DNA of 43,171 nucleotides from Candidatus Zixiibacteriota bacterium. Its GTDB lineage: Bacteria > Zixibacteria > MSB-5A5 > GN15 > FEB-12. Of this stretch, positions 29,387 through 43,171 are shown piece by piece. The translations under genes and the position numbers were made by a program. The stretch's first letter is position 1, and every line of letters starts with the position of its first letter. The notes beneath the pieces are model-generated. The model was not told where the DNA came from, made no database searches, and saw only the letters and a list, made by a program, of their open reading frames with translations. The stretch covers positions 1-43,171 of the forward strand of contig JAJRXM010000083.1 in NCBI GenBank assembly GCA_024276275.1. The letters are read 5' to 3'.

Positions 29387-29457
29387 TGGGATATCGTCCA
29401 ATGGTAGGACATGCGGTTCTGGTCCGCAGTATCAGGGTTCGAATCCTTGTATCCCAG
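29387..29457 (+). tRNA. tRNA-Gln (anticodon CTG)
   Basis: The cloverleaf is complete. The acceptor stem is TGGGATA/TATCCCA, the D arm GTCC-AATGGTA-GGAC and the anticodon stem TGCGG/CCGCA around loop TTCTGGT (anticodon CTG). The T arm is AGGGTTCGAATCCTT and the discriminator base is G. CCA is not encoded. The gene starts the island: a tyrosine integrase gene follows 119 bases later, and the 3' half of this tRNA is the probable attachment site. No second copy of the 3' half is seen in the window, so the far attachment site lies beyond 43171. Confidence 0.93.
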
Positions 29458-29503
29458 CTTTAAAACTCTTGTTAAAATTATCTCCTTATATACCAATAAG
29501 TTA

Positions 29504-29533: not shown

Positions 29534-29576
29534 TCTAACGTTCTTCTAACGCATTTAATTAAAGGAATTGTTAGAA
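29533..29576 (+). repeat. TTCTAACG direct repeats with an inverted partner
   Basis: TTCTAACG occurs at 29533-29540 and 29544-29551 (11 bases apart, one helical turn), and its inverted core GTTAGAA at 29570-29576 just before the integrase ATG. The arrangement resembles arm-type sites for a tyrosine recombinase or an operator for autoregulation. The assignment is inference from position. Confidence 0.45.
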
Positions 29577-30704
29577 ATGGCGAGTATTCAAAACAAAATT
29601 AATAAGCAGGGTAAAAAGATATTTTATGTCGTTGTACCTTTGAAAAATAAAAGAAAATGGATACGTGCAGGAACAAAACAACAGGCAACAAATCTAATGC
29701 GTCAACTCTCAGAGGTACGAGAAGAAGAGTTATACGAAAGATTAGGATTTACTCAAAACCTCATTAGTGTTGAAGATTATTTCAACCGCTTCCTTGAATT
29801 TGTAAAACTTCATAATCAGAGTTCTACGCTTAAACGTTATAGTGCGATAATTCATACATTCCAAGTCTTTTTAAATAAATACTATAATTTCTTGTCTCAT
29901 ATTTCTGAGATAAAACTTGAGCATATAGAAGAGTATCAAAATATTAGATTAAATTCTTTGGATTTAAAAAATGAAGCTGATGGAAATAAAATAGGTACTC
30001 ATACTAAAAAAAAATTACCTACTCCTCAAACAGTTAATTTTGAGACTAATGTAATACGAACGGCATTTCTTTGGGGACAAGATAGAGAGCTTATTAAAAA
30101 TGTTCCAACGGAAAAATTAAAAAAACTCAAACCTAAGCTTGTTCAAAAATCAAAAATTTTATCTCTTGAAGAATGTCATTTACTGCTTTCAACAGCTCTC
30201 TCTATGTCTAAAACAACAATGAATATGAAATTGTTCTATTATGTTTTCAAGTTTATGTTGAATTCTGGACTACGATCAGGAGAACTCTGTAATTTAACAT
30301 GGGACGATGTGGATATTGAGACTCGTTTAATTAAAATTCAACCTAAAGCTAATTGGACACCAAAAACGTGTACTAGAGAATTTTATATGAACGATGCATG
30401 TTTTGAAATTTTGAAATCTCTTAAGAAAGAGAGTAACTATATTTTCCTTGATAATAAAGAAGAGCAACTCACCGTTAAAAGACTTAGAAATGCATTTTTG
30501 AGGATTTGCAAAAGGTGTGGACTCACTCAATATACAAGAGTGCATGACTTAAGACATACTTATAACAGCTTTATGCAAATGAATGGCGTAGATGCTCCAA
30601 CTATGGGTAAAATTTTAGGACATAAAGATATTGAAACTACGATGATATATACTCATCAAACAGTAGAGCATTTAAAGCGAATGGCGAATAAAGTATCGGT
30701 TTAA
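29577..30704 (+). CDS. tyrosine recombinase/phage-type integrase
   Basis: This 375-residue integrase has an N-terminal SAM-like core-binding domain (about 60-165) and a C-terminal catalytic domain with R233 (SGLRSGELCNLTW), H323-D-L-R326-H, H349 (LGHKDIETT) and the nucleophile Y358 (MIYTHQT). It should integrate and excise the island at the adjacent tRNA-Gln. The ATG at 29577 is chosen because AAAGGA lies ten bases upstream; an in-frame TTG at 29568 is too near that site. The gene reads outward from the tRNA, the usual orientation for elements inserted in tRNA 3' ends. Codon use is more AT-rich than in the backbone, as in the rest of the island. Confidence 0.93.
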   Translation: MASIQNKINKQGKKIFYVVVPLKNKRKWIRAGTKQQATNLMRQLSEVREEELYERLGFTQNLISVEDYFNRFLEFVKLHNQSSTLKRYSAIIHTFQVFLNKYYNFLSHISEIKLEHIEEYQNIRLNSLDLKNEADGNKIGTHTKKKLPTPQTVNFETNVIRTAFLWGQDRELIKNVPTEKLKKLKPKLVQKSKILSLEECHLLLSTALSMSKTTMNMKLFYYVFKFMLNSGLRSGELCNLTWDDVDIETRLIKIQPKANWTPKTCTREFYMNDACFEILKSLKKESNYIFLDNKEEQLTVKRLRNAFLRICKRCGLTQYTRVHDLRHTYNSFMQMNGVDAPTMGKILGHKDIETTMIYTHQTVEHLKRMANKVSV

Positions 30705-30764: not shown

Positions 30765-30799
30765 TTATTATTATTTTATAGCGAAATTTGGGTGAAATA

Positions 30800-31078
30800 A
30801 TGAAGGGATTATTCTATAGACTTCTTGAAGATGGAGACAAGCAAATAATTGGAACTTTTATGTTAAATCAAGAGGGGTCGAAGGTACTCTTTTATCCTGA
30901 AGGTTCTAACGAACCTATAACGGATTCTGCTTTTATTGTTAAGTTTAGTAAAATCTACTGTGCGATTACACATGATGGTTGTTTTGATGTTGATTTAGAC
31001 AAAGATGGTGTTAAGAAATACTTAGAGAACTTAAAATTTAGATTTAGTGGTTACACTTGGGTTGAGAATGTAGAATGA
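30800..31078 (+). CDS. hypothetical 92-residue protein
   Basis: This small acidic protein is not recognised. It starts MKGLFYRLLEDGDKQIIG and ends YTWVENVE. The pattern of short strands with Gly/Asp turns and aromatic residues suggests an all-beta or beta-rich fold. A GGGTGA motif lies just before the ATG at 30800, which is why the upstream in-frame TTG at 30788 is not used as start. It stands between the integrase and hsdM with its own possible promoter, and could be an accessory or control factor for the restriction system. That role is a guess from location only. Confidence 0.6.
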   Translation: MKGLFYRLLEDGDKQIIGTFMLNQEGSKVLFYPEGSNEPITDSAFIVKFSKIYCAITHDGCFDVDLDKDGVKKYLENLKFRFSGYTWVENVE

Positions 31079-31132: not shown

Positions 31133-31156
31133 ATGGAAAACAATAATGGCAATTAA
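31133..31156 (+). CDS. possible 7-codon leader peptide overlapping the hsdM start
   Basis: An AAGGA at 31118-31122 is ten bases before an ATG at 31133 that encodes MENNNGN and stops at 31154-31156. The hsdM ATG (31146) lies inside this mini-ORF in another frame and has no ribosome binding site of its own at good distance. Ribosomes ending the leader could restart at hsdM. This would limit methylase expression. It is only an observation about layout. Confidence 0.3.
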   Translation: MENNNGN

Positions 31157-33563
31157 AAAAAGTGAATTATATAGTTCTCTATGGAAAAGCTGTGATGAGC
31201 TACGAGGCGGAATGGATGCCTCGCAATACAAAGATTATGTACTCGTAATTCTATTTGTAAAATATGTAACAGATAAATCTAAAATTGATTCTGATTTTTT
31301 GATTGATGTTCCAAAAGGCGGTAGTTTTGATGATATGATTAGCCTTGTAGGGAAAAAAGATATTGGTGAAAACATCAATACAATTATCGCAACACTGGCT
31401 GAAGCAAACGATTTAAAAGGAATTATTGATGTAGCTGATTTCGACGATGATGATAAATTAGGCAAAGGGAAAGACATGTTAAAACGTCTTTCCAAATTAG
31501 TCTCAATTTTTAGTGATTTAGACTTTGGTAAAAACAAAGCAGAGGGCGATGATATTTTAGGAGATGCCTATGAATATCTGATGAGACATTTTGCTACAGA
31601 ATCAGGAAAAAGTAAAGGACAGTTTTATACTCCATCCGAAGTCTCAAGAATCATGGCAAAAGTCATAGGAATTAATAGTGCTAAAACCTCAGATCAAACC
31701 GTATATGATCCTACTTGCGGTTCAGGTTCTCTTCTCTTAAAGGCTGCCGATGAAGCACAAAAAAAAGATATATCTATTTATGGACAAGAAAATGATGTAG
31801 CAACTCGAGCACTTGCCAAAATGAACATGATCTTACACGGACATGAATTAGGAGATATTTGGAGAGGGAATACTATTTCTGAACCTCACTTTAAAGAAAA
31901 TAACGGTAGTCTAAAAAGGTTTGATTTTGTTGTAGCTAATCCCCCGTTTTCTATGAAGTCATGGAGTAGTGGAATTATACCTGAAGAAGATGAATTTGAA
32001 CGTTATGATATAAAAGATTGGGGAAGTGCTCCACCTGCCAAAAATGGTGACTATGCCTTTTTGTTACATATAGTAAAATCATTAAAAAGCTCCGGTAAAG
32101 GTGCTATCATCTTACCACATGGTGTTCTTTTTAGAGGTAATGCAGAATATGAGATTCGTAAAAATCTAATCAAACGTGGTTACATAAAAGGAATAGTTGG
32201 ATTACCACCTAACCTTTTTTATGGAACAGGCATTCCTGCTTGTATCATTATTCTTGATAAAGAAAATGCTGAAACTCGAAAAGGCATTTTTATGATTGAT
32301 GCGAGCAAAGACTTTTATAAAGATGGAAATAGAAACAGATTACGCTCAAGAGACATTCATAAAATTGTTGATGTTTTTACAAAACAAATAGAACTTGAAA
32401 AATATTCTCGAATGATTCCCAAATCAGAAATTACTGATGAAAAAAATGATTACAATTTAAACCTTCTAAGATATATTGATACACAAGAAGAAGAAGACAT
32501 TCAAGATATTGAAGCACATCTCAAGGGAGATATACCAAACAAGGATATAGAAAAATTAAATTCTTATTGGAAGGTATATCCAAACTTAGAAAAAGTTCTA
32601 TATACAAAGAGTAAAAGGAAAAATTACTCTTCCCTACTTATTAATAAAGATAAAATTAAATCGATCATTTATGACAATTCAGAATTTAAAGATTACTCGA
32701 AAAAAGTTAGAAAATCTTATCTCAATTGGAAGAAAAATAACGAAACTTATCTTAGATCACTAAAAGTAGGAGCTAAACCTAAAGAAATTATTTATACGAT
32801 TTCTGAAGACATACTTTCTAGTTTTTCAAAACTCGATCTTATAGATAACTATGATATGTATCAACATATGATGACTTATTGGTTTGAAACTATGCAAGAT
32901 GACATTTATTTTATTGTAATTAATGGATGGATTATTGAAATCAATTTAGTGAAAAATAAAAAAGGGAAAGAAACTGGTTGGGATTGTGATCTAATTCCAA
33001 AACCACTTGTAATAGATAAATATTTCTCGAAGGAACAAGCTGATATAGAAGCATTACAAAGCGACTTTGAAGTGCTTGTTCAGGAAAAAGAAGCCTTTGA
33101 AGAAGAACAGACAGATGAAGACGATATTTTCTCAGAGTGTCGTGGAAAAAAGGGAGATATAACTAAAGGTGAGATTAACAAAAGAGTAAAAAAAATAAAA
33201 AATGATTCTGAGTTTGTTGAAGAACTTGAACTCATAAAAAAGTATCTTGAATTATTAGATAAAGAAAAAGTTCTTAAAGATAATATAAAAAAAGCTATTG
33301 TTGAACTTGATAAAATTTTATTTAAGCAATATAAGAGTTTAACAGTTGATGAGATAAAAGACCTTGTTGTTGAAGATAAATGGTTTGCTTCAATTTCTAA
33401 CTCTGTTAATGAAGAGATTGAACGTATTTCCCAAACTCTTACAGGGAGAATCAATGAGTTAGCATTGCGATATGAAACTCCTCTTCCTAAATTATTCGAT
33501 GATGTAGAAGGATTAACTAAGAAAGTTAATAGTCACTTGGAGAAGATGGGCTTCTCATGGTAG
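31146..33563 (+). CDS. hsdM: type I restriction-modification DNA methyltransferase subunit, with long C-terminal extension
   Basis: This 805-residue N6-adenine methyltransferase of the HsdM family has an N-terminal helical HsdM_N region (SSLWKSCDELRGGMDASQYKDYVLVILFVKY, shown in part as WKSCDELRGGMDASQYK). The SAM-binding motif is D188-PTCGSGS and the catalytic motif N265-PPF. Together with HsdS it methylates adenines in a bipartite site; with HsdR it also supports cleavage. Ordinary HsdM proteins have about 500-560 residues, so about 250 are extra here. The tail (about 420-805) is rich in Lys and Glu and has coiled-coil-like stretches; its role is unknown. The stop overlaps hsdS by seven bases. 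Confidence 0.93.
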   Translation: MAIKKSELYSSLWKSCDELRGGMDASQYKDYVLVILFVKYVTDKSKIDSDFLIDVPKGGSFDDMISLVGKKDIGENINTIIATLAEANDLKGIIDVADFDDDDKLGKGKDMLKRLSKLVSIFSDLDFGKNKAEGDDILGDAYEYLMRHFATESGKSKGQFYTPSEVSRIMAKVIGINSAKTSDQTVYDPTCGSGSLLLKAADEAQKKDISIYGQENDVATRALAKMNMILHGHELGDIWRGNTISEPHFKENNGSLKRFDFVVANPPFSMKSWSSGIIPEEDEFERYDIKDWGSAPPAKNGDYAFLLHIVKSLKSSGKGAIILPHGVLFRGNAEYEIRKNLIKRGYIKGIVGLPPNLFYGTGIPACIIILDKENAETRKGIFMIDASKDFYKDGNRNRLRSRDIHKIVDVFTKQIELEKYSRMIPKSEITDEKNDYNLNLLRYIDTQEEEDIQDIEAHLKGDIPNKDIEKLNSYWKVYPNLEKVLYTKSKRKNYSSLLINKDKIKSIIYDNSEFKDYSKKVRKSYLNWKKNNETYLRSLKVGAKPKEIIYTISEDILSSFSKLDLIDNYDMYQHMMTYWFETMQDDIYFIVINGWIIEINLVKNKKGKETGWDCDLIPKPLVIDKYFSKEQADIEALQSDFEVLVQEKEAFEEEQTDEDDIFSECRGKKGDITKGEINKRVKKIKNDSEFVEELELIKKYLELLDKEKVLKDNIKKAIVELDKILFKQYKSLTVDEIKDLVVEDKWFASISNSVNEEIERISQTLTGRINELALRYETPLPKLFDDVEGLTKKVNSHLEKMGFSW

Positions 33564-34810
33564 AAAATAAAATTAAACCCGGTTATAAACAAACTGAAGT
33601 TGGAATTATTCCTGAAGATTGGGAAATTAAAAAAATTAGAGATGTCTGTACTCTTATAAATGGTAGGGGTTTTAAACCGCATGAATGGAAAAGTAAAGGA
33701 ATTCCTATCATTCGAATTCAAAATTTAAACGGGTCTGAGGAATTTAATTATTTTAGTGGGAATTATAATACAAAAATTGAAGTGAAATCTGGTCAGTTAC
33801 TATTTGCATGGTCTGGGAGTAAGGGTACTTCATTCGGCCCGCATATTTGGAATAGACCTCTGGGTTTATTGAATTATCATACCTGGAAGGTTGATATAGA
33901 TAAAAATAATATTGATAAGGATTATTTTTTCCATGCATTAAAATCATTAACTAAGTTTATTGAAAGTAATGCCCATGGTGCCTCAGCTCTCGTTCATACT
34001 CAAAAATGGGAAATGGAAGGATTTTTGCTTCAGTTACCTCCTGAACAAAAAGAACAATCAGCCATCGCAGAATCACTCAATAGCATTGATGAGCTTATCG
34101 AGTCACTTGATAAACTCATTGAAAAGAAAAAGATGATAAAACATGGAGCTATGCAAGAACTTCTTGCTGGGGAAAAAAGATTGCCTGGGTATAGCAAAGT
34201 ATGGGAAGAAAAAGAACTTGGTGATTTCTCTAAAGTATTCTCTGGCAGTTCAGCTCCTCAGGGCGAAAACTATTATATTAACGGTATTTATCCTTTTGTT
34301 AGGGTTTCCGATTTATCTGTATCAAGAAGAACAAATCATCTAATTTCTGTTCATGACTACTTAAATAAATATTGTATAGTAAGCAAAAATTGTGTTAAAG
34401 CCAAAAAAGGCACTATTCTATTTCCGAAAAGTGGTGCTGCTGTTCAAAATAATAATAGAGCTCAATTAGGAATTGATGCTTTTGTTGTGTCACATTTGGC
34501 AGCTATATTTAGTGAAGAAGTTTCTAATAGATTTCTATATTACAAATTATCGCAGATTGACATGATGGATTATGTGGGTGATAAAGGATATCCTTCCTTA
34601 AAAGTATCGCAAATAAAAAAAATTATACTTACTATTCCTTCCGATCAAAAAGAACAAACAGCCATCGCAAATGTATTATCTGATATGGATGAAGAGATTG
34701 AATTACTTGAGAAAAAAAGACATAAATATAAACTTTTAAAACTTGGTATGATGCAAGAGTTATTAACAGGGAGGATACGTTTACATGGCAACGCAACAAG
34801 AAATAATTAG
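33557..34810 (+). CDS. hsdS: type I restriction-modification specificity subunit
   Basis: This 417-residue HsdS has two target-recognition domains. Each begins with a conserved entry (GIIPEDWEIKKIRDVC and SKVWEEKELGDFSKVF) and each is followed by a coiled spacer: PPEQKEQSAIAESLNSIDELIESLDKLIEKKK and the parallel SDQKEQTAIANVLSDMDEEIELLEKKR, quoted here only as KEQSAIAESL and KEQTAIANVL. The two spacers are near copies, so recombination between halves could change specificity. HsdS brings the methylase and nuclease to a split DNA site whose sequence cannot be predicted here. It overlaps hsdM by seven bases and the next gene by 26, which shows tight coupling. Confidence 0.93.
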   Translation: MVENKIKPGYKQTEVGIIPEDWEIKKIRDVCTLINGRGFKPHEWKSKGIPIIRIQNLNGSEEFNYFSGNYNTKIEVKSGQLLFAWSGSKGTSFGPHIWNRPLGLLNYHTWKVDIDKNNIDKDYFFHALKSLTKFIESNAHGASALVHTQKWEMEGFLLQLPPEQKEQSAIAESLNSIDELIESLDKLIEKKKMIKHGAMQELLAGEKRLPGYSKVWEEKELGDFSKVFSGSSAPQGENYYINGIYPFVRVSDLSVSRRTNHLISVHDYLNKYCIVSKNCVKAKKGTILFPKSGAAVQNNNRAQLGIDAFVVSHLAAIFSEEVSNRFLYYKLSQIDMMDYVGDKGYPSLKVSQIKKIILTIPSDQKEQTAIANVLSDMDEEIELLEKKRHKYKLLKLGMMQELLTGRIRLHGNATRNN

Positions 34811-36764
34811 AAGTTTAATTACTCCAAATGGTCAAACAATGTATAAAGTATTTTCGAATACTAATAGGTATTACATTGATATATATCAACGAGATTACAA
34901 ATGGGATAAAAACCAAGTAGAGACATTATTACAGGACATCGAATTAAGATTTAACTTATCAAAGGTTAGAAATATCGAACCTAATCAAGTAAAAGAAGAT
35001 GTATTAAATAAGTTTAAACCATATTTTCTCAATACTTTTCTTACATGTACGACTGGTAATAATGTATCAATAGTTGATGGTCAACAGAGATTAACTACTT
35101 TTTTGATTATTCTGATTAAACTCAGAGAACTTGTTATAGAAATACATGAAGACGAATCTTATGAAAAGAAAACAATCAGCGTTAAAACTTTAGATAAATT
35201 GATTTTTGAAGCTGATGATTTTGATAATCCTACTTATTATAAAATTTATAACGATAATAGACAAAGTGCTTTTGACTATCTTTTAGATAATGAGAATGGT
35301 TTTGATTATGAAGATGAAACTCAGAAGAAAATCTTAAATAATTATGAAATAATTTCAAGATATTATAATGTTTTTTTTAAACCTAAAAAAGGTGACTTAA
35401 ATATAGATGTAAATAAATTAACATATTACATCTACTACCTTTTGGAAAAATTAAACATTGTTGAAATTAAAATAGAAGATCAAGAAAACGTAGCTACAAT
35501 ATTTGAAGTTGTAAATGATAGAGGGCTAGGACTTAAACCATATGAAATACTCAAAGGAAAATTCTTAGGCAATTTAGATCAAAAGCAAAAAGAAGAGGCT
35601 AATGAGATTTGGGTTGAACTCCAAAATAAATATTATAAAAGCAAAGTTGTTCATAGCTCAGAAACAGATATAGATTTAGATACATTTTTCAAAATTTATT
35701 TTAGGTCTAAATTTGCAGATAGTGAAGCAGAATACAAAAGATTTGAAGATAAATATCATTATGAAATGTATAAAAATAGCAAGATACTAAAGTATTTTAA
35801 AAAATTTGAAAAGACAAAACATCTTTTTGAATGGGTAAAGAATGATTTTAAATATTTCGCTGAGCTTCATCTTCGTTTACGCACAACCTATGATAATGAG
35901 TTTCTGATATTTAATAAACTTCTTGATCAGAACCAACAATATCTGTTGATAATGTCATCTATTGAACTCAATGATAAAGACGAGAAAGAGAAAATCAATC
36001 TCATCGCTAAAAAGTTTGATCAATTTCATACAACTTTAAGATTGCTTGACGTATATGATAGTAATCAATTTCAGGATATCATTTTCAAGATAAATGTTGA
36101 ACTTCGTAACACGAAACTCAAGAATATAAATAAAATATTTGATAAGGCACTAATTTCTTATCTAGAAGATGAAAGTGTAGTAAAATCTAAAGCTTATACT
36201 CAAACATCAGACTTATATAAATGGGAATTGTTCCAAAATGTTCGTAATAGATGGCATAACTTCTCCAAATATGTACTTATGCGAGTAGATAGATATTTAG
36301 CAAATCAATTAGATAAACCTTCTTTTTGTAGTGAAAGCTTAAATGAATTAGAGGACAGATTTAATAAGAATAGACTTAAAAAATATGGTATGCATTTAGA
36401 ACATATATACGCCTCTAATGATAAAAACCTTGATTTGTTTAAAGATGAGAATGGATATATAAACGAAGAACAATTTAAAACTATAAGAAATAAACTTGGC
36501 ATGGTGCTTTTACTCAAAGATAAACAAAATATAAGTAGCAATAATGATTATTATAAATTGAAAGTCGATGACTATGCTACAAGTAACATTATATGGAATG
36601 AAATATTAGTTGGACATATTGATTCTGTTGATACTAAAAATTTCCCAGAAGATGTCACGTTTACTACCATTCTACCTGATGAAAATGATGTTTTCCCTCT
36701 TGATCAAGTTGAGACAAGACAAAAAGAATTGTTTAGTATGATAAAACTAATATGGGGGTTTTAG
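34785..36764 (+). CDS. GmrSD-like DUF262/DUF1524 protein embedded in the type I operon
   Basis: This 659-residue protein has an N-terminal DUF262 domain (ParB/sulfiredoxin-like fold) with IYQRDYKWDKNQVETLL and the hallmark D98-GQQR102-LTT, a helical middle, and a C-terminal DUF1524 HNH-like nuclease part with H537-L-E-H540 followed by NKLGMVLLL and NISSNND. In GmrSD-type type IV restriction enzymes these two domains hydrolyse nucleotide and cut modified DNA. Its gene starts 26 bases inside hsdS and ends four bases before hsdR, so it is part of the same operon. It could guard against phages with modified bases that escape the type I enzyme. That joint role is inference. Confidence 0.85.
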   Translation: MATQQEIIRSLITPNGQTMYKVFSNTNRYYIDIYQRDYKWDKNQVETLLQDIELRFNLSKVRNIEPNQVKEDVLNKFKPYFLNTFLTCTTGNNVSIVDGQQRLTTFLIILIKLRELVIEIHEDESYEKKTISVKTLDKLIFEADDFDNPTYYKIYNDNRQSAFDYLLDNENGFDYEDETQKKILNNYEIISRYYNVFFKPKKGDLNIDVNKLTYYIYYLLEKLNIVEIKIEDQENVATIFEVVNDRGLGLKPYEILKGKFLGNLDQKQKEEANEIWVELQNKYYKSKVVHSSETDIDLDTFFKIYFRSKFADSEAEYKRFEDKYHYEMYKNSKILKYFKKFEKTKHLFEWVKNDFKYFAELHLRLRTTYDNEFLIFNKLLDQNQQYLLIMSSIELNDKDEKEKINLIAKKFDQFHTTLRLLDVYDSNQFQDIIFKINVELRNTKLKNINKIFDKALISYLEDESVVKSKAYTQTSDLYKWELFQNVRNRWHNFSKYVLMRVDRYLANQLDKPSFCSESLNELEDRFNKNRLKKYGMHLEHIYASNDKNLDLFKDENGYINEEQFKTIRNKLGMVLLLKDKQNISSNNDYYKLKVDDYATSNIIWNEILVGHIDSVDTKNFPEDVTFTTILPDENDVFPLDQVETRQKELFSMIKLIWGF

Positions 36765-36768
36765 ATAT

Positions 36769-39700
36769 ATGACATCGATAGTCGGGCAACGAGAAATAAA
36801 AACTCAAGAGAGAATTATAAAATTATTCTCCGATAAAGAAAAGTTAGACTATAAGTATCTTGGTAATTTAGAAGACAAGTCAGACAATAGTAATATTGAA
36901 GAAGAGTTACTTCTCAAATTTCTAAAGAAGAATAAAAAATATTCTGACACATTAATAAAAAAAGCTATTGATAAATTACAGAAGGCATCAATTGTACAAA
37001 ATAAAAGCCTCTATGAAGCCAACAAAGAAGTCTATTCCCTGCTACGCTATGGTGCTCAAGTAAAAGAGAATGTTGGTGAAAATAAAAAGACTGTTTATTT
37101 TATTGACTGGAACAATACAAAAAATAATGATTTCTATATTGCTCAGGAAGTTACTGTAAAAGGTCAGCATAACAAAAGACCTGACATTGTTCTCTACATA
37201 AATGGTATTGCTGTTGTGGTACTTGAATTAAAACGAAGTACTATATCTGTTTCTGAAGGTATACGCCAAAACCTAGACAATCAAAAAGGAATGTTCATTA
37301 AGCAATTCTTTTCAACTATCCAGTTGGTGATGGCTGGGAATGACACAGAAGGATTACGATATGCCACTATAGAAACAGATGAGATATATTATCTTACATG
37401 GAAAGAAAAATCATCTGTTAAAAATAAACTTGATAGAAGCCTACTTCAACTTTGTAATAAAGATAGACTACTTGAAATTATTCACAACTTCTTAGTTTTT
37501 GATGGTGGGGATAAAAAAATATGTCGTCATAATCAGTATTTTGGAGTTAAAGAATCTCAAAAATATCTTAAGAAAAGAGAAGGTGGAATCATTTGGCACA
37601 CTCAAGGTAGTGGAAAAAGTTTAACTATGATATGGTTAGCCAAATGGATACGAGAAAATATTGATAATTCAAGAGTACTTATAATTACTGACAGAAACGA
37701 ATTAGACGATCAAATTGAAAGGTTCTTTGTTGGTGTTGATGAAGATATATATAGAACTAAAAGTGGTAAGGATTTAATCAATAAATTAAATAAATCAGAG
37801 CCATGGCTAATGTGTTCTTTAGTTCATAAATTCGGTTTGAGAACAAATAGTAGTACTGAAGACTATCTAAAAGAACTCAAGGAACTTATCCCTAAAGATT
37901 TTAAAGCAAAGGGTGATATTTATGTTTTCGTTGATGAATGCCATCGAACGCAATCTGGTAAACTCCATAAAGCGATGACTAAGTTATTACCTAATGCAGT
38001 ATTTATAGGTTTTACTGGAACACCTCTATTAAAAGCTGATAAAAAACGGAGTATTGAAGTTTTTGGGAAATATATTCATACCTATAAATATGATGAAGCT
38101 GTCGAAGATAAAGTAGTATTAGACTTACAATATGAAGCACGTGAGATAGATCAAAAACTGACTTCTCAACAAAAAGTTGATTTTTGGTTTGAAGCTAAGA
38201 CAAAAGGTCTTACTGATTTTGCTAAAACAGAGCTTAAGAAAAAATGGGGAACGATGCAAAAAGTTCTTAGCTCAAACTCACGCCTTAATAAAATTGTTGC
38301 AGATATCATGATTGATATGGAAAGACATGGTCGTTTAATGAGCGGTCGTGGGAATGCCTTATTAGTGGCAGGTAGTATTTATGAAGCATGTAAATATTAT
38401 GAATTATTTCAAAAGAACGGCTTAAAAAAATGTGCAATTGTTACTTCTTATGTACCTACTATTGATTCTATAAAAGGCGAGACAGTAAGTGATGAAGAAG
38501 AAACTGATAATCTGATTAAATATGATATTTATCAAAAAATGCTTGATGGAAAAGACCCTGACATATTTGAGAAAGAAGTCAAAAAGAAATTTGTCGAAGA
38601 ACCCGGACAAATGAAACTTCTCATTGTTGTAGATAAACTCTTAACAGGTTTTGATGCTCCTCCTGCTACCTATTTATATATTGATAAAAACATGCAAGAT
38701 CACGGATTATTTCAAGCAATATGTCGTATCAATAGGCTACATGGTGAAGACAAAGATTACGGATATATAATTGACTATAAAGATTTATTTAAAAGTCTTA
38801 ATCAAGCAGTAAAAGACTACACCTCTGAAGCATTTGAAAATTTTGATGCTGATGATGTTAGAGGACTTCTAAAAGACCGTATTAGTACAGCTAAAGAAAA
38901 TTTAGATTCATCATTAGAACAAATAAAAGCACTTTGTGAAGCCGTTAAACCTCCGAAGGAATCAGGTGAATTTATCGAGTATTTTTGTGGTGATACAGAG
39001 ATTCCAGATGATCTCAAAAATCACGAGCAACGCAGAGTGACTCTTTATAAGCTCACCTCATCCTTGATTCGAGCTTATGCAAATTTGGCTAATGAAATGG
39101 AACTTGCAGGCTATACTCAAAAAGAGGCATTGAAAATAAAATCTGATGTAAAATATTATGAACAAATTCGCTCAGAAATTAAGTTGGCTAGTGGTGATTA
39201 TATTGACCTAAAAGCATATGAGCCAGCAATGCGACATCTAATTGATTCTTACATTGATGCGGAAGAAAGCAAGATAGTAAGTGCTTTTGATGATATTACG
39301 ATTCTTGATATGATTGCAAAAGATGGTGAATATGCGGTGAAATCACTTCCATCTAACGTTAAAAAGGATAATGATTCTGTAGCACAAGTCATTGAGAACA
39401 ATGTTCGTAAACTCATTATTGATGAGAAGCCAACCAATCCTAAATATTATGAAGATATGTCCGTTTTACTTGATAATTTGATTCGTGAGAGAAGAGAAAA
39501 TGCTATTACGTATGAGCAATATTTGAAAAAAATTGTCGCTATTATCAAGGATATGAAAAACTCTACAGGTGGAAGTAAATATCCTAAAGAAGTAAATACT
39601 CCTGCGAAACGAGCATTTTATGATAATTTAGGTCAAGATGAAAATTTTTCACTTATACTTCATAAACGTATTATGGAAGAAAAACCTGATGGCTGGAGAG

Positions 39701-39825
39701 GTGTAAGATTAAAAGAAAAAAAGATGAAAAAAGTGATAGAGAAAGCTCTCAAAGAAAACAATATTGTTTCTGATGAAGAAACAGATAAAATATTAGATTT
39801 GGTAAGAAACCAAGATGAGTTCTAA
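36769..39825 (+). CDS. hsdR: type I restriction endonuclease subunit R
   Basis: This 1018-residue HsdR has an N-terminal PD-(D/E)xK nuclease (D139 in RPDIVLY, then E153-L-K155 in VVLELKRS) and a superfamily 2 translocase with Walker A T278-QGSGKS284 and Walker B D389-ECH392. Motif III GFTGTPLL and the later LLIVVDKLLTGFDAP and AICRINR motifs follow. The C-terminal helical part contacts the methylase core. It uses ATP to pull DNA and cuts at a distance from unmethylated sites. Length is normal for HsdR and all motifs are kept. It starts four bases after the DUF262 gene and overlaps the next gene by 11. Confidence 0.95.
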   Translation: MTSIVGQREIKTQERIIKLFSDKEKLDYKYLGNLEDKSDNSNIEEELLLKFLKKNKKYSDTLIKKAIDKLQKASIVQNKSLYEANKEVYSLLRYGAQVKENVGENKKTVYFIDWNNTKNNDFYIAQEVTVKGQHNKRPDIVLYINGIAVVVLELKRSTISVSEGIRQNLDNQKGMFIKQFFSTIQLVMAGNDTEGLRYATIETDEIYYLTWKEKSSVKNKLDRSLLQLCNKDRLLEIIHNFLVFDGGDKKICRHNQYFGVKESQKYLKKREGGIIWHTQGSGKSLTMIWLAKWIRENIDNSRVLIITDRNELDDQIERFFVGVDEDIYRTKSGKDLINKLNKSEPWLMCSLVHKFGLRTNSSTEDYLKELKELIPKDFKAKGDIYVFVDECHRTQSGKLHKAMTKLLPNAVFIGFTGTPLLKADKKRSIEVFGKYIHTYKYDEAVEDKVVLDLQYEAREIDQKLTSQQKVDFWFEAKTKGLTDFAKTELKKKWGTMQKVLSSNSRLNKIVADIMIDMERHGRLMSGRGNALLVAGSIYEACKYYELFQKNGLKKCAIVTSYVPTIDSIKGETVSDEEETDNLIKYDIYQKMLDGKDPDIFEKEVKKKFVEEPGQMKLLIVVDKLLTGFDAPPATYLYIDKNMQDHGLFQAICRINRLHGEDKDYGYIIDYKDLFKSLNQAVKDYTSEAFENFDADDVRGLLKDRISTAKENLDSSLEQIKALCEAVKPPKESGEFIEYFCGDTEIPDDLKNHEQRRVTLYKLTSSLIRAYANLANEMELAGYTQKEALKIKSDVKYYEQIRSEIKLASGDYIDLKAYEPAMRHLIDSYIDAEESKIVSAFDDITILDMIAKDGEYAVKSLPSNVKKDNDSVAQVIENNVRKLIIDEKPTNPKYYEDMSVLLDNLIRERRENAITYEQYLKKIVAIIKDMKNSTGGSKYPKEVNTPAKRAFYDNLGQDENFSLILHKRIMEEKPDGWRGVRLKEKKMKKVIEKALKENNIVSDEETDKILDLVRNQDEF

Positions 39826-40537
39826 AACAATGATGACAATAATGGGATATGATATAAATATTATTCGAAAAGGTATTAAGAATATTCATCTTGGTGTATA
39901 TCCTCCGAACGGTCGCATCAGAGTTGCTGTTCCTGAGAGTGTTGATGATGAAGCGATAAGACTACTTGTTATCTCACGGATTTCTTGGATAAAAAAACAA
40001 AAAATAAAATTTCTCAATCAAGAGAGACAATCAAAGAGAAAATATATTTCAGGTGAGAGTCATTATTTTTTTGGGAAGCGGTATTTATTAAAAGTCATCG
40101 AAACCACAAGCAAACCTAAGGTTGAAATCAAAAGTAATAAGTACATTGATCTTTATATCAATAAAGATACTGATTATAATAAGAAAGAAAAAATCATCGA
40201 AGAGTTTTATCGGGCTGAATTAAGAATTAGACTTTCAAAATTAAAACAAAAATGGGAAAGTAAATTGAAAGTAAATATTGAAGAATTAAGTATTAAAAAG
40301 ATGAAAACGAAGTGGGGTACGTGTAATCCTGACAAAAAAAAGATACTAATTAACTTAGAGCTTGCCAAAAAACCAATTCAAAGTATTGAATATATACTTG
40401 TTCACGAACTCATTCATTTTTTTGAAAAAAAACATAATGAGAATTTTAGAAAATTGATCAATCGACATTATCCTCAATGGAAACAAGCACAAAGTGAACT
40501 CAATAATATAATTCTTGGATATTGTAATTGGGGATAA
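39815..40537 (+). CDS. YgjP-like zinc metallohydrolase (DUF45)
   Basis: This 240-residue protein of the YgjP/DUF45 (SprT-like, M48-related) family has the zinc motif H197-E-L-I-H201 in LVHELIHFFEKKHNENF with H207 after it, and the family signature KMKTKWGTCNPDKKKILINLEL. Members are often placed at the end of type I restriction operons, but what they do there is not known. The gene overlaps hsdR by 11 bases, so their expression is coupled. It is normal in length and complete. Confidence 0.9.
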   Translation: MSSKTMMTIMGYDINIIRKGIKNIHLGVYPPNGRIRVAVPESVDDEAIRLLVISRISWIKKQKIKFLNQERQSKRKYISGESHYFFGKRYLLKVIETTSKPKVEIKSNKYIDLYINKDTDYNKKEKIIEEFYRAELRIRLSKLKQKWESKLKVNIEELSIKKMKTKWGTCNPDKKKILINLELAKKPIQSIEYILVHELIHFFEKKHNENFRKLINRHYPQWKQAQSELNNIILGYCNWG

Positions 40538-40562
40538 TACTAAGATGAAAATCTAAAAAACT

Positions 40563-42980
40563 ATGAGAACAAAAAGACAAATAAATCCTAGTACATGGAC
40601 TTCTTTTTGGAAACACCTCGGTATAATTACTGAAAAACGGAACCGTTTTAAAAAAGATATGAGTTCTGTTAGAAGGAGAGCATTACCTCAGTTAGTAAGA
40701 ATCGGAGTCAACCCTGTAACTGCTGATAATGTATTTGCAAAATTAGCAAAATATAAAGATCCACTGGTATTTTATTATTTTTCTAAATTGTTTCGAAGAG
40801 ACCCAGAAACCATTCAAGAATGGACTGAAACAAATAGTATTGAAAGTGCCTTCAAGAAATTATTTAACATATTTCAATATAATTCGTTAGATAAATTAAG
40901 AATAAGATTTAGAGAACTCTATTATTTGAATGAACTAAATAAAAAGGGAGAAGGCTGGAGTTTTCAGGCTAAATATACAGGGTCAGGGTCAGTTTTTAAT
41001 ATTAAATTATCCTCTTTTACGAGGTTGTTTAATATTGCAGATAATCGTTATCAATATAAACCTGCTTGTAAGATTAGAACAAAAAGTAAGGTTATATTGT
41101 GTTTCGATCGAATATTGGGTGAAAGAAAAATTCATAAATTTATAATTATCGATAAACAAGGTAATTTGCTAAATATAAAAATATCTGTAGATTCACAAAA
41201 AGAGGTTAGAATTGCTAAAGCAGCACTTAGAAAGGAATTTGATACATTAATCGATTCTCCTCAAGTAGATAAAAAACTAAATAAATTATCAAAATTCTTA
41301 AAAGTTGGAGAATCTAAACACTTTGTCTTAACAAGGCTTTCATTATTTCATGATGACTACCTTGTAAATATCAGTCCTAAGTACAATTTGCCTTCTAATA
41401 TAACTGAGTATTCAATTTATAAAAATAATTTTGAAAGTATCTGCACACCACAAAAATCACTTGTTAGTATGCGTTTCTTATCACTAAGTAAGAATAAGAG
41501 GACTCAGATAAATATCGATGTCAGAAATTATCAAACAAGTACAATTATAGGTGCATTGATACTGAGTTTTAATGATAAGAAATTGAATAATAATGAAAAA
41601 AAGCAAATTAGAGAGGATTTTGAAAAAGATTTTGCAATACCCTTGGACACATTTATTTCTGTAAAGGATATTGGTGCTGAAGAAATATATAATTTAATTC
41701 TTAATTCTAACTTACGTCGTTCTATTGGTTATTCTCTTCGTTCAAACACAGCTCTTAAAATATATTCTGGTCTTGTTCAACAAGGACTTTTTGACCTTCC
41801 TGAAGTATCTAAAGATGAACCAAGATATTGTATCAACAGAAATTGTAATAATAAGTATACTCCTGTTTCTAAATACAGTTATTGTGATGTGTGCGGTGAA
41901 GTATTACTTCCGGGGAAAGAAATTGTTCTAAGCAAATTAAATGATAAAAATAATTGTAATTACATTGTCAATGTTCTGAAAAAATGGGATATACAATGTT
42001 GCGTATTAAAGCGTAAAATTTTGAATAAATCCTTAAGAGTAATTCAAATACGTTACAATAAAGATGAGATAGAAATAATTCCTATTATTAATCAATTAAA
42101 TGAAAATCAAGTTTTATTATTGGGACTTCGATATCTCAATGCTTTAATTTTATCTTCAAAAGACAACTTGGATTCATTCTCACATAACAATATTACTGCA
42201 AATTCTTTGTCTCATTTTATTTATAAATGTGACTTTGGCACTAAAGCTGAATTTATAAATAAACATACTAGTATCGTATCAAATCAGTTAAATAGTACAA
42301 GAAATGAAATTCACAATTCATATCAACGCATGTCAGATAATAGGACATATAGTGCTAAGGAACGTCAAGTCAAAAATTTGGGTGCGGAATTATTTGAAGC
42401 AGATTGTTCAATATTACTTAAATATATGTTTGGTAATAGTATTTGGCTTGGTGCTAAAACTAGAGGTAAAGCTGTTCCTGATGGAATCACAGCATTTCCT
42501 ATACTGGGCAAAAAGCAAGGTTGTTTCATTTGGGATGCTAAATATGGAAAAGGTCAAAAAGTACAATTAGGAGGAGATGATAAAAATAAGAGATATATAA
42601 TCGAGGGTCGGGTAAATAAATCCATAAAAGAAAATGGATTTTTGAAAGCACTTATATTCATCAGCAACAAGAAAAATCCACAAAATTTCGAAAATAAGTA
42701 TCAGAAGTTTTTAAGAAAAAATAAAATTGGAAAGTTCAAAATTGTTTTTTTAAAAAGTAAGCAGTTAGTCGATATATTTGATCACTTTAGAAGTAATGAA
42801 GCCGACATACTCAACAATCAACACATACAGGAAATATTTGTAAATTCCATAAAAAATCTATTCTTTAGTACTAAAAACAACAGACCAGCGGAGGTTGTTA
42901 GCGATTCAAAGCTTAAGAAAATTCTCAACCTAAATTGCGATTCGTATAATTTGCATAGAATAAATAGAGTTAGTGTCTAA
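40563..42980 (+). CDS. uncharacterised 805-residue protein with zinc ribbon and C-terminal PD-(D/E)xK nuclease domain
   Basis: I do not recognise the N-terminal 420 residues, which begin MRTKRQINPSTWTSFW and look mixed alpha/beta. A zinc ribbon follows: C423-x4-C428-x12-C441-x2-C444, in a RYCINRNCNNKYT...YCDVCG setting. The last part has a restriction-nuclease layout: helix with E609/E612 (LGAELFEAD), then V-P-D640 (KAVPDGIT), then W-D658-A-K660 (FIWDAKYG), followed by an alpha-beta tail. The D...D-x-K triad fits a PD-(D/E)xK nuclease. The gene lies 25 bases after the YgjP-like gene and shares the AT-rich codon use of the operon, so it is probably the last gene of the defence unit. It could sense nucleic acid through the zinc ribbon; this is inference. 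Confidence 0.75.
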   Translation: MRTKRQINPSTWTSFWKHLGIITEKRNRFKKDMSSVRRRALPQLVRIGVNPVTADNVFAKLAKYKDPLVFYYFSKLFRRDPETIQEWTETNSIESAFKKLFNIFQYNSLDKLRIRFRELYYLNELNKKGEGWSFQAKYTGSGSVFNIKLSSFTRLFNIADNRYQYKPACKIRTKSKVILCFDRILGERKIHKFIIIDKQGNLLNIKISVDSQKEVRIAKAALRKEFDTLIDSPQVDKKLNKLSKFLKVGESKHFVLTRLSLFHDDYLVNISPKYNLPSNITEYSIYKNNFESICTPQKSLVSMRFLSLSKNKRTQINIDVRNYQTSTIIGALILSFNDKKLNNNEKKQIREDFEKDFAIPLDTFISVKDIGAEEIYNLILNSNLRRSIGYSLRSNTALKIYSGLVQQGLFDLPEVSKDEPRYCINRNCNNKYTPVSKYSYCDVCGEVLLPGKEIVLSKLNDKNNCNYIVNVLKKWDIQCCVLKRKILNKSLRVIQIRYNKDEIEIIPIINQLNENQVLLLGLRYLNALILSSKDNLDSFSHNNITANSLSHFIYKCDFGTKAEFINKHTSIVSNQLNSTRNEIHNSYQRMSDNRTYSAKERQVKNLGAELFEADCSILLKYMFGNSIWLGAKTRGKAVPDGITAFPILGKKQGCFIWDAKYGKGQKVQLGGDDKNKRYIIEGRVNKSIKENGFLKALIFISNKKNPQNFENKYQKFLRKNKIGKFKIVFLKSKQLVDIFDHFRSNEADILNNQHIQEIFVNSIKNLFFSTKNNRPAEVVSDSKLKKILNLNCDSYNLHRINRVSV

Positions 42981-43015: not shown

Positions 43016-43171
43016 TCACAACCCCAACCGTTTCAAATCTTTTCGACTCAAGAAATTATTCTGTTTTTTATTTTCCCTCACCCATTCTAATACTTCAGAA
43101 CGCTCAAACCTGATCTGTTTTCCAAGTTTGATGTAAGGAACAGCATCGTTATATATCCAGTACTTAACCAC
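43016..43171 (-). CDS. excisionase-like small helix-turn-helix protein (partial, N-terminus outside window)
   Basis: The minus-strand frame enters at the right edge and ends with TGA at 43018-43016. The 51 visible residues run VVKYWIYNDAVPYIKLGK and then QIRFERSEVLEWVRENKK, followed by a basic tail. The 'YxWI-x-PYIKLGK-x-RF-x-RSE-x-EWV' pattern is the winged-helix of excisionase/HTH_17 proteins, which act as recombination directionality factors or small regulators. It is convergent with the defence operon, about 35 bases away. Being on the same island as the integrase it may control its excision; a separate mobile module is an alternative. Confidence 0.75.
   Translation of the reverse strand: MVKYWIYNDAVPYIKLGKQIRFERSEVLEWVRENKKQNNFLSRKDLKRLGL

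Follow-up and report, generated by a model that had tools for sequence, protein, structure and literature searches.

Gene content and layout of the island

The DNA analysed here, which we refer to as the window, is the entire 43,171-nt contig JAJRXM010000083.1 of Candidatus Zixiibacteriota bacterium (assembly GCA_024276275.1, positions 1–43,171 of the forward strand), and any DNA beyond position 43171 lies outside our view. It carries a type I restriction operon on a tRNA-Gln/integrase island, with the tRNA gene, the likely attachment site, and a tyrosine integrase at the island's left (Table 1). Because there is no second copy of the tRNA end within the window, the far border of the island is not seen. 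An earlier reading of the letters alone (the first-pass annotation) had described a contiguous defence operon starting with hsdM, and this description holds: HsdM, HsdS, a DUF262/GmrSD-type protein, HsdR and a YgjP/SprT-like metallopeptidase are each confirmed by family matches, and since these upstream genes overlap or abut, all on the same strand, the operon can be taken as contiguous.

The same-strand run is closed by a large gene that starts 25 nt after ygjP and comprises an ATG start, 805 codons and a stop. Its frame is intact and its GC content is low, the same as that of the type I operon, and an artefact or misassembly was accordingly dropped as an explanation. A terminator scan found no terminator. 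Converging on this gene from the right is an excisionase-like helix-turn-helix frame, truncated where the contig stops, which may be the second integration gene of the island. A further ORF of 96 aa, at 30788–31078 between the integrase and hsdM, is without any family match.

Table 1. Features of the island and of the 805-aa protein, in window coordinates
Feature	Position	Strand	Basis or remark
tRNA-Gln, likely attachment site	29387..29458	+	tRNA scan
Tyrosine integrase of island	29568..30704	+	family match
hsdM	31146..33563	+	family matches
hsdS	33557..34810	+	Pfam-level and PADLOC family matches
DUF262/GmrSD-type gene (type IV-like), between hsdS and hsdR	34785..36764	+	Pfam PF03235, PF07510; PADLOC Orf5/HEC-06 models
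hsdR	36769..39825	+	family matches
YgjP/SprT-like metallopeptidase	39815..40537	+	Pfam PF01863, E=5e-56
Putative FokI-like zinc-ribbon nuclease gene	40563..42980	+	ORF and homology; without curated family
N-terminal half, residues 1-420, presumed DNA-reading part	40563..41822	+	fold unplaced
Four-cysteine predicted zinc ribbon, C423-C444	41829..41894	+	invariant in full-length relatives
C-terminal nuclease region, residues 574-757, FokI-like PD-(D/E)xK (predicted)	42282..42833	+	HMM domain, 55 bits
E612, catalytic candidate, helix A	42396..42398	+	invariant in 24/24 sequences
D640 of PDG motif	42480..42482	+	D in 21, E in 3
D658-A-K660 of DxK motif	42534..42542	+	D and K invariant in 24/24
Excisionase-like helix-turn-helix frame, cut by contig end	43016..43171	-	reading frame; identified by eye

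Relatives of the 805-aa protein

The first-pass annotation called the product of the last gene unrecognised, and in the curated libraries it is: Pfam, NCBIfam, PADLOC and PHROG give no identifying match, and there is no meaningful sequence match in the PDB. Nor do searches with the whole protein reach any relative, whether by full-length tblastn in plasmids and phages or in genome contigs and viral contigs. Among 132 genomes of the query's own phylum, the gene is absent from the other 131, and a profile search of that phylum, the sole bacterial one so searched, returned no second member.

The first archaeal lead came instead from a permissive search (E about 1) with only the last 171 residues. 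It consisted of two proteins from haloarchaeal plasmids, 786 and 792 aa long and thus close to the query in length, in which the match falls at the same end as in the query. Aligned with it, both retain all four cysteines of the ribbon together with E612, D640, D658 and K660. Other matches of this search were set aside: a Legionella gene of the 170-aa class, which lies in a housekeeping region, and short matches in Synechocystis and Rhizobium were not taken as relatives.

Used as queries in turn, the two haloarchaeal proteins led to further haloarchaeal members. Of 392 genomes sampled from their class, 21 match at E<=0.001, a few of these matches being partial or split. A second archaeal clade has proteins of 842–843 aa, and a shorter archaeal group (465–505 aa) has the nuclease in common with the family. 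A third clade comes from three genomes of low GC within the archaeal phylum to which the haloarchaea belong. Seven loci emerged from a final genome scan, which, with one viral scan, was the only search driven by a chimeric query (a relative's N-terminal part joined to the query's C-terminal part). The viral scans and a viral fold search gave nothing meaningful.

Some of these loci have peculiarities of their own. At L072:8060-10797 and L069:1183-3944, a nuclease-domain protein of 503–505 aa is preceded by a gene of 409–416 aa whose family is unmatched, possibly a two-gene system. The Haloferax larsenii member (L067:7977-10480) is split into two overlapping ORFs, which may reflect a frameshift or else a protein that is naturally made in two parts. 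Among the third-clade loci (L099, L100 and L101), one copy lies beside Gabija and one near a type III methylase.

Homology between these proteins and the query can be seen from a profile built without the latter. Made from 10 archaeal members, it scores the query at 63.2 bits (E=8e-19), as against 4.1 bits for the best of 999 shuffles, and with the third clade added the query's E-value becomes 1e-20. The stretches matched are residues 332–476 and 574–757. In profile comparison the third clade is the query's nearest neighbour (24% across 389 columns, P=1.5e-11). A tree built from 24 sequences gives the query a long separate branch with no settled position. Judged by these comparisons, the query has full-length deep relatives, all found in archaea. 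In the literature searched, we found no description of this protein family.

Conserved residues and domains

The first-pass annotation had proposed a four-cysteine ribbon and a nuclease-like triad. The ribbon stands in full: C423, C428, C441 and C444 are invariant in all full-length relatives aligned. The query spaces its cysteines as C423-x4-C428 and C441-x2-C444, and most relatives have CxxC...CxxC; the ribbon profile weakly matches Spt4/RNA polymerase subunit e'' ribbons (E=0.003). With its two conserved cysteine pairs, the region qualifies as a zinc ribbon, for which metal binding is predicted.

The proposed triad comprised E609 or E612, D640 and D658-A-K660, and most of it survives alignment of the query with 23 relatives. 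E612, D658 and K660 are present throughout, and the D640 position is exchanged for glutamate (VPEG for VPDG) in three low-GC archaeal members only. E609 varies, and because this alternative lacks conservation, E612 is the catalytic candidate. Conservation and the model of a relative (below) together supply the elements expected of a PD-(D/E)xK site, namely a helix-A acid, a D/E on strand 2 and a D/E-x-K on strand 3. The sequences give good support to a new family of proteins that join a zinc ribbon to a conserved active site of the PD-(D/E)xK type.

The N-terminal half is another matter, as it aligns only weakly to the relatives (from residue 204 by hhalign, from about 330 by HMM), and that of the modelled relative has no convincing Foldseek match. 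Since it matches nothing, its function as a reader is an assumption.

Likeness of the nuclease domain to FokI

The Pfam model FokI_cleav_dom (PF09254) matches one query fragment weakly (E=0.022, 14.6 bits against a cut-off of 25), a match that did not recur among the relatives. Aligned by hhalign with a hand-entered sequence of the FokI cleavage domain, the family's C-terminal profile scores 35.3 (P=8.5e-5, 81 columns), pairing the PDG, the DxK and a GY-L......RY stretch. As controls, the best of 150 shuffled copies of FokI scores 19.2, and HsdR, McrC and another PD-(D/E)xK protein stay at or below 16.9.

An AF2 model of the query itself without an alignment was unusable (pLDDT 33), and we turned to that of a relative, L038, made with eight aligned sequences (mean pLDDT 61.7). 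Its C-terminal half runs helix, three strands, helix, strand, the order expected of the superfamily. The modelled residues E581, D607, D624 and K626 are the equivalents of E612, D640, D658 and K660; The helix carries E581, strand 2 begins with D607, and D624 and K626 fall on strand 3. Foldseek matches this model to FokI (2fok) with probability 0.96, at an rmsd of 4.6 Å over 154 columns (E=0.39), the single high-probability PDB match among the matches listed. The profile and fold lines of evidence agree and support a FokI-like C-terminal domain, with neither decisive alone and both concerning the family.

Defence neighbours and cargo slots

The archaeal relatives occupy varied defence contexts. 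In BREX-5 islands they lie between pglZ and the OLD-type ATPase/pglX, and in McrBC loci directly after McrB-McrC-like genes, with a DUF1156 methylase a few kb away. Hma genes adjoin some; one is near a type III methylase, and one is beside Gabija. Several, including those in genomes G273, G443 and G578, have no recognised defence neighbour. The link between the family and defence genes is suggestive. Among the contexts read there is no constant methylase partner of the kind that would mark a type IIS enzyme.

Repeated pairing with hsdR and ygjP, for which the first-pass annotation had recommended a survey, did not appear: pairing with this type I system is seen once only. The operon does recur without the nuclease gene. 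Its plasmid relatives repeatedly show the arrangement hsdM-hsdS-[slot]-hsdR-YgjP-[slot], the slot between hsdS and hsdR holding a DUF262 pair, a DarTG-like pair (in L086), TrlF with an RNA-binding protein, GIY-YIG or TIGR02391, and that after YgjP holding TIR, SIR2 or TIGR04141. Elsewhere in the query's phylum, one genome has a CBASS cyclase and effector directly behind a YgjP relative. The nuclease gene is absent from the plasmid relatives examined, and so lacks the constancy by which a type I subunit would be recognised. The same genome also contains a decayed sister island (L017; G000:C80, 3518-11175, minus strand) with an integrase, hsdM, an in-frame 678-aa hsdS-hsdR fusion, a separate hsdR tail and YgjP, and with neither the DUF262 gene nor the nuclease gene. 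Its absence from this paralogous operon suggests that the latter gene is probably cargo and not a type I subunit.

Two features of this type I family deserve mention in their own right. It has two exchangeable cargo slots filled by varied defence genes (L079-L089, L018 and window 33557-42980), and YgjP is its near-constant partner, placed after hsdR in the plasmid relatives.

Proposed function and alternatives

The reading we favour, with a probability of roughly 0.55, is that the gene encodes an autonomous accessory restriction nuclease of FokI outline, carried as mobile cargo behind type I genes and perhaps triggered by modification in the manner of a type IV enzyme. The N-terminal half and the zinc ribbon would bind and recognise some feature of DNA, and the FokI-like C-terminal domain would cut it, probably by dimerising transiently; E612, D640 and D658 would bind Mg2+, and K660 would assist. 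Carried in this way, the nuclease would form a second line that acts on DNA missed by HsdR. It seems likely both that the family cuts in the manner of FokI and that it serves in defence as portable cargo. The trigger is our guess: because the family is not accompanied by any one methyltransferase, it is unlikely to protect its host through a cognate mark, and foreign modified DNA is favoured. In the query and its relatives, Pfam and PADLOC find no known modified-base reader, GmrSD or McrB domain that would place them in type IV by domain content.

Adenine methylases do occur in many of the contexts, as type I here and as PglX, HmaB or type III Mod elsewhere, and would suit an endonuclease that borrows its neighbour's methylation, cutting DNA that has not received the host's mark from HsdM, PglX, HmaB or Mod. 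These methylases differ among hosts, however, the Gabija locus shows none beside the gene, and in McrBC loci the gene directly follows McrC, although the DUF1156 methylase is a few kb off; we regard such a modification-blocked enzyme as improbable, if the most credible of the alternatives. Somewhat harder to credit is an abortive-infection nuclease that degrades host DNA upon a phage signal and not a DNA feature. It would fit a gene without a dedicated protective methylase, and the ribbon and unplaced N-terminal half could conceivably sense a protein or a nucleotide, but the apparent relation to FokI and the DNA-modification genes nearby speak for an enzyme that acts directly on DNA entering the cell.

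The layout of the island, with the gene on the operon's strand, close behind ygjP and equally low in GC, might be read as that of a fourth component of this type I system acting with HsdR or YgjP. Against this stand its absence from the sister operon, the plasmid relatives examined and the other 131 genomes of the phylum that were searched, and the filling of the post-YgjP position elsewhere by TIR, SIR2 or CBASS genes, so that we consider it quite unlikely. The first-pass annotation had left open whether the protein adds a second line to type I restriction or is an independent defence gene. The zinc ribbon and the PD-(D/E)xK-type nuclease domain are supported and a second line is plausible, yet we prefer an independent gene to an effector coupled to type I restriction, because the relatives adjoin several unrelated defence systems and the sister operon lacks the gene. 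Least probable of all, to the point of being far-fetched, is a role on behalf of a mobile element, for instance in homing or as a transposition endonuclease: the gene does sit on an integrase island, and relatives are found on archaeal plasmids, some close to integrases, but others lie inside the gene order of other systems (in the pglZ-pglX interval, or after McrC), and the island already carries its own integrase.

Returning to the favoured accessory nuclease, we would say that the family is probably a portable extra line of defence, its distant archaeal relatives often lying beside other anti-virus systems. A more ambitious version, which we offer tentatively, is an undescribed family of large zinc-ribbon FokI-like restriction nucleases, present in archaea and at least one bacterium, portable beside type I, type III, BREX, Hma, McrBC and Gabija systems and equipped with a new N-terminal DNA reader. 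If the favoured inference is true, this would be a new restriction nuclease family, with a candidate new DNA-reading domain, that was missed by the defence catalogue searched here, and it would explain a large unknown gene in some type I, BREX and Hma islands. E612, D640, D658, K660 and the four cysteines are concrete residues for a direct test.

Comparison with known systems

FokI is a type IIS restriction endonuclease of about 580 aa, compared with 805 aa here. The likeness lies in the C-terminal nuclease domain, with its PDG, DxK and subsequent GY..L......RY, and is seen in both profile and fold matches. FokI differs in having a winged-helix recognition part and its own methylase, where the present protein combines a zinc ribbon with an N-terminal half that is unplaced, and has no methylase of its own. 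The MspJI family, whose modification-dependent enzymes are also of the PD-(D/E)xK type, gives a weak, non-significant fold match (Foldseek probability 0.15), and no MspJI-type reader domain was detected in the query family.

As to genomic setting, TgvAB of Vibrio cholerae is a type IV system lying inside a type I operon (PMC11411939), and both it and BrxU in BREX, of the GmrSD family, resemble our case in that an accessory nuclease is housed in or next to a defence operon that relies on methylation (PMC11411939). The GmrSD enzymes are built from DUF262 and DUF1524 His-Me finger domains, whereas the 805-aa protein has neither of these and a PD-(D/E)xK site in their place; the DUF262 gene of the window is a separate one. 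DarTG2, too, is a defence cargo of type I operons, situated between hsdS and hsdR (PMC12255303), and is similarly exchangeable, the difference being that the 805-aa gene sits after YgjP. By analogy with TgvAB and DarTG2, the arrangement seen here fits published cargo in type I operons.
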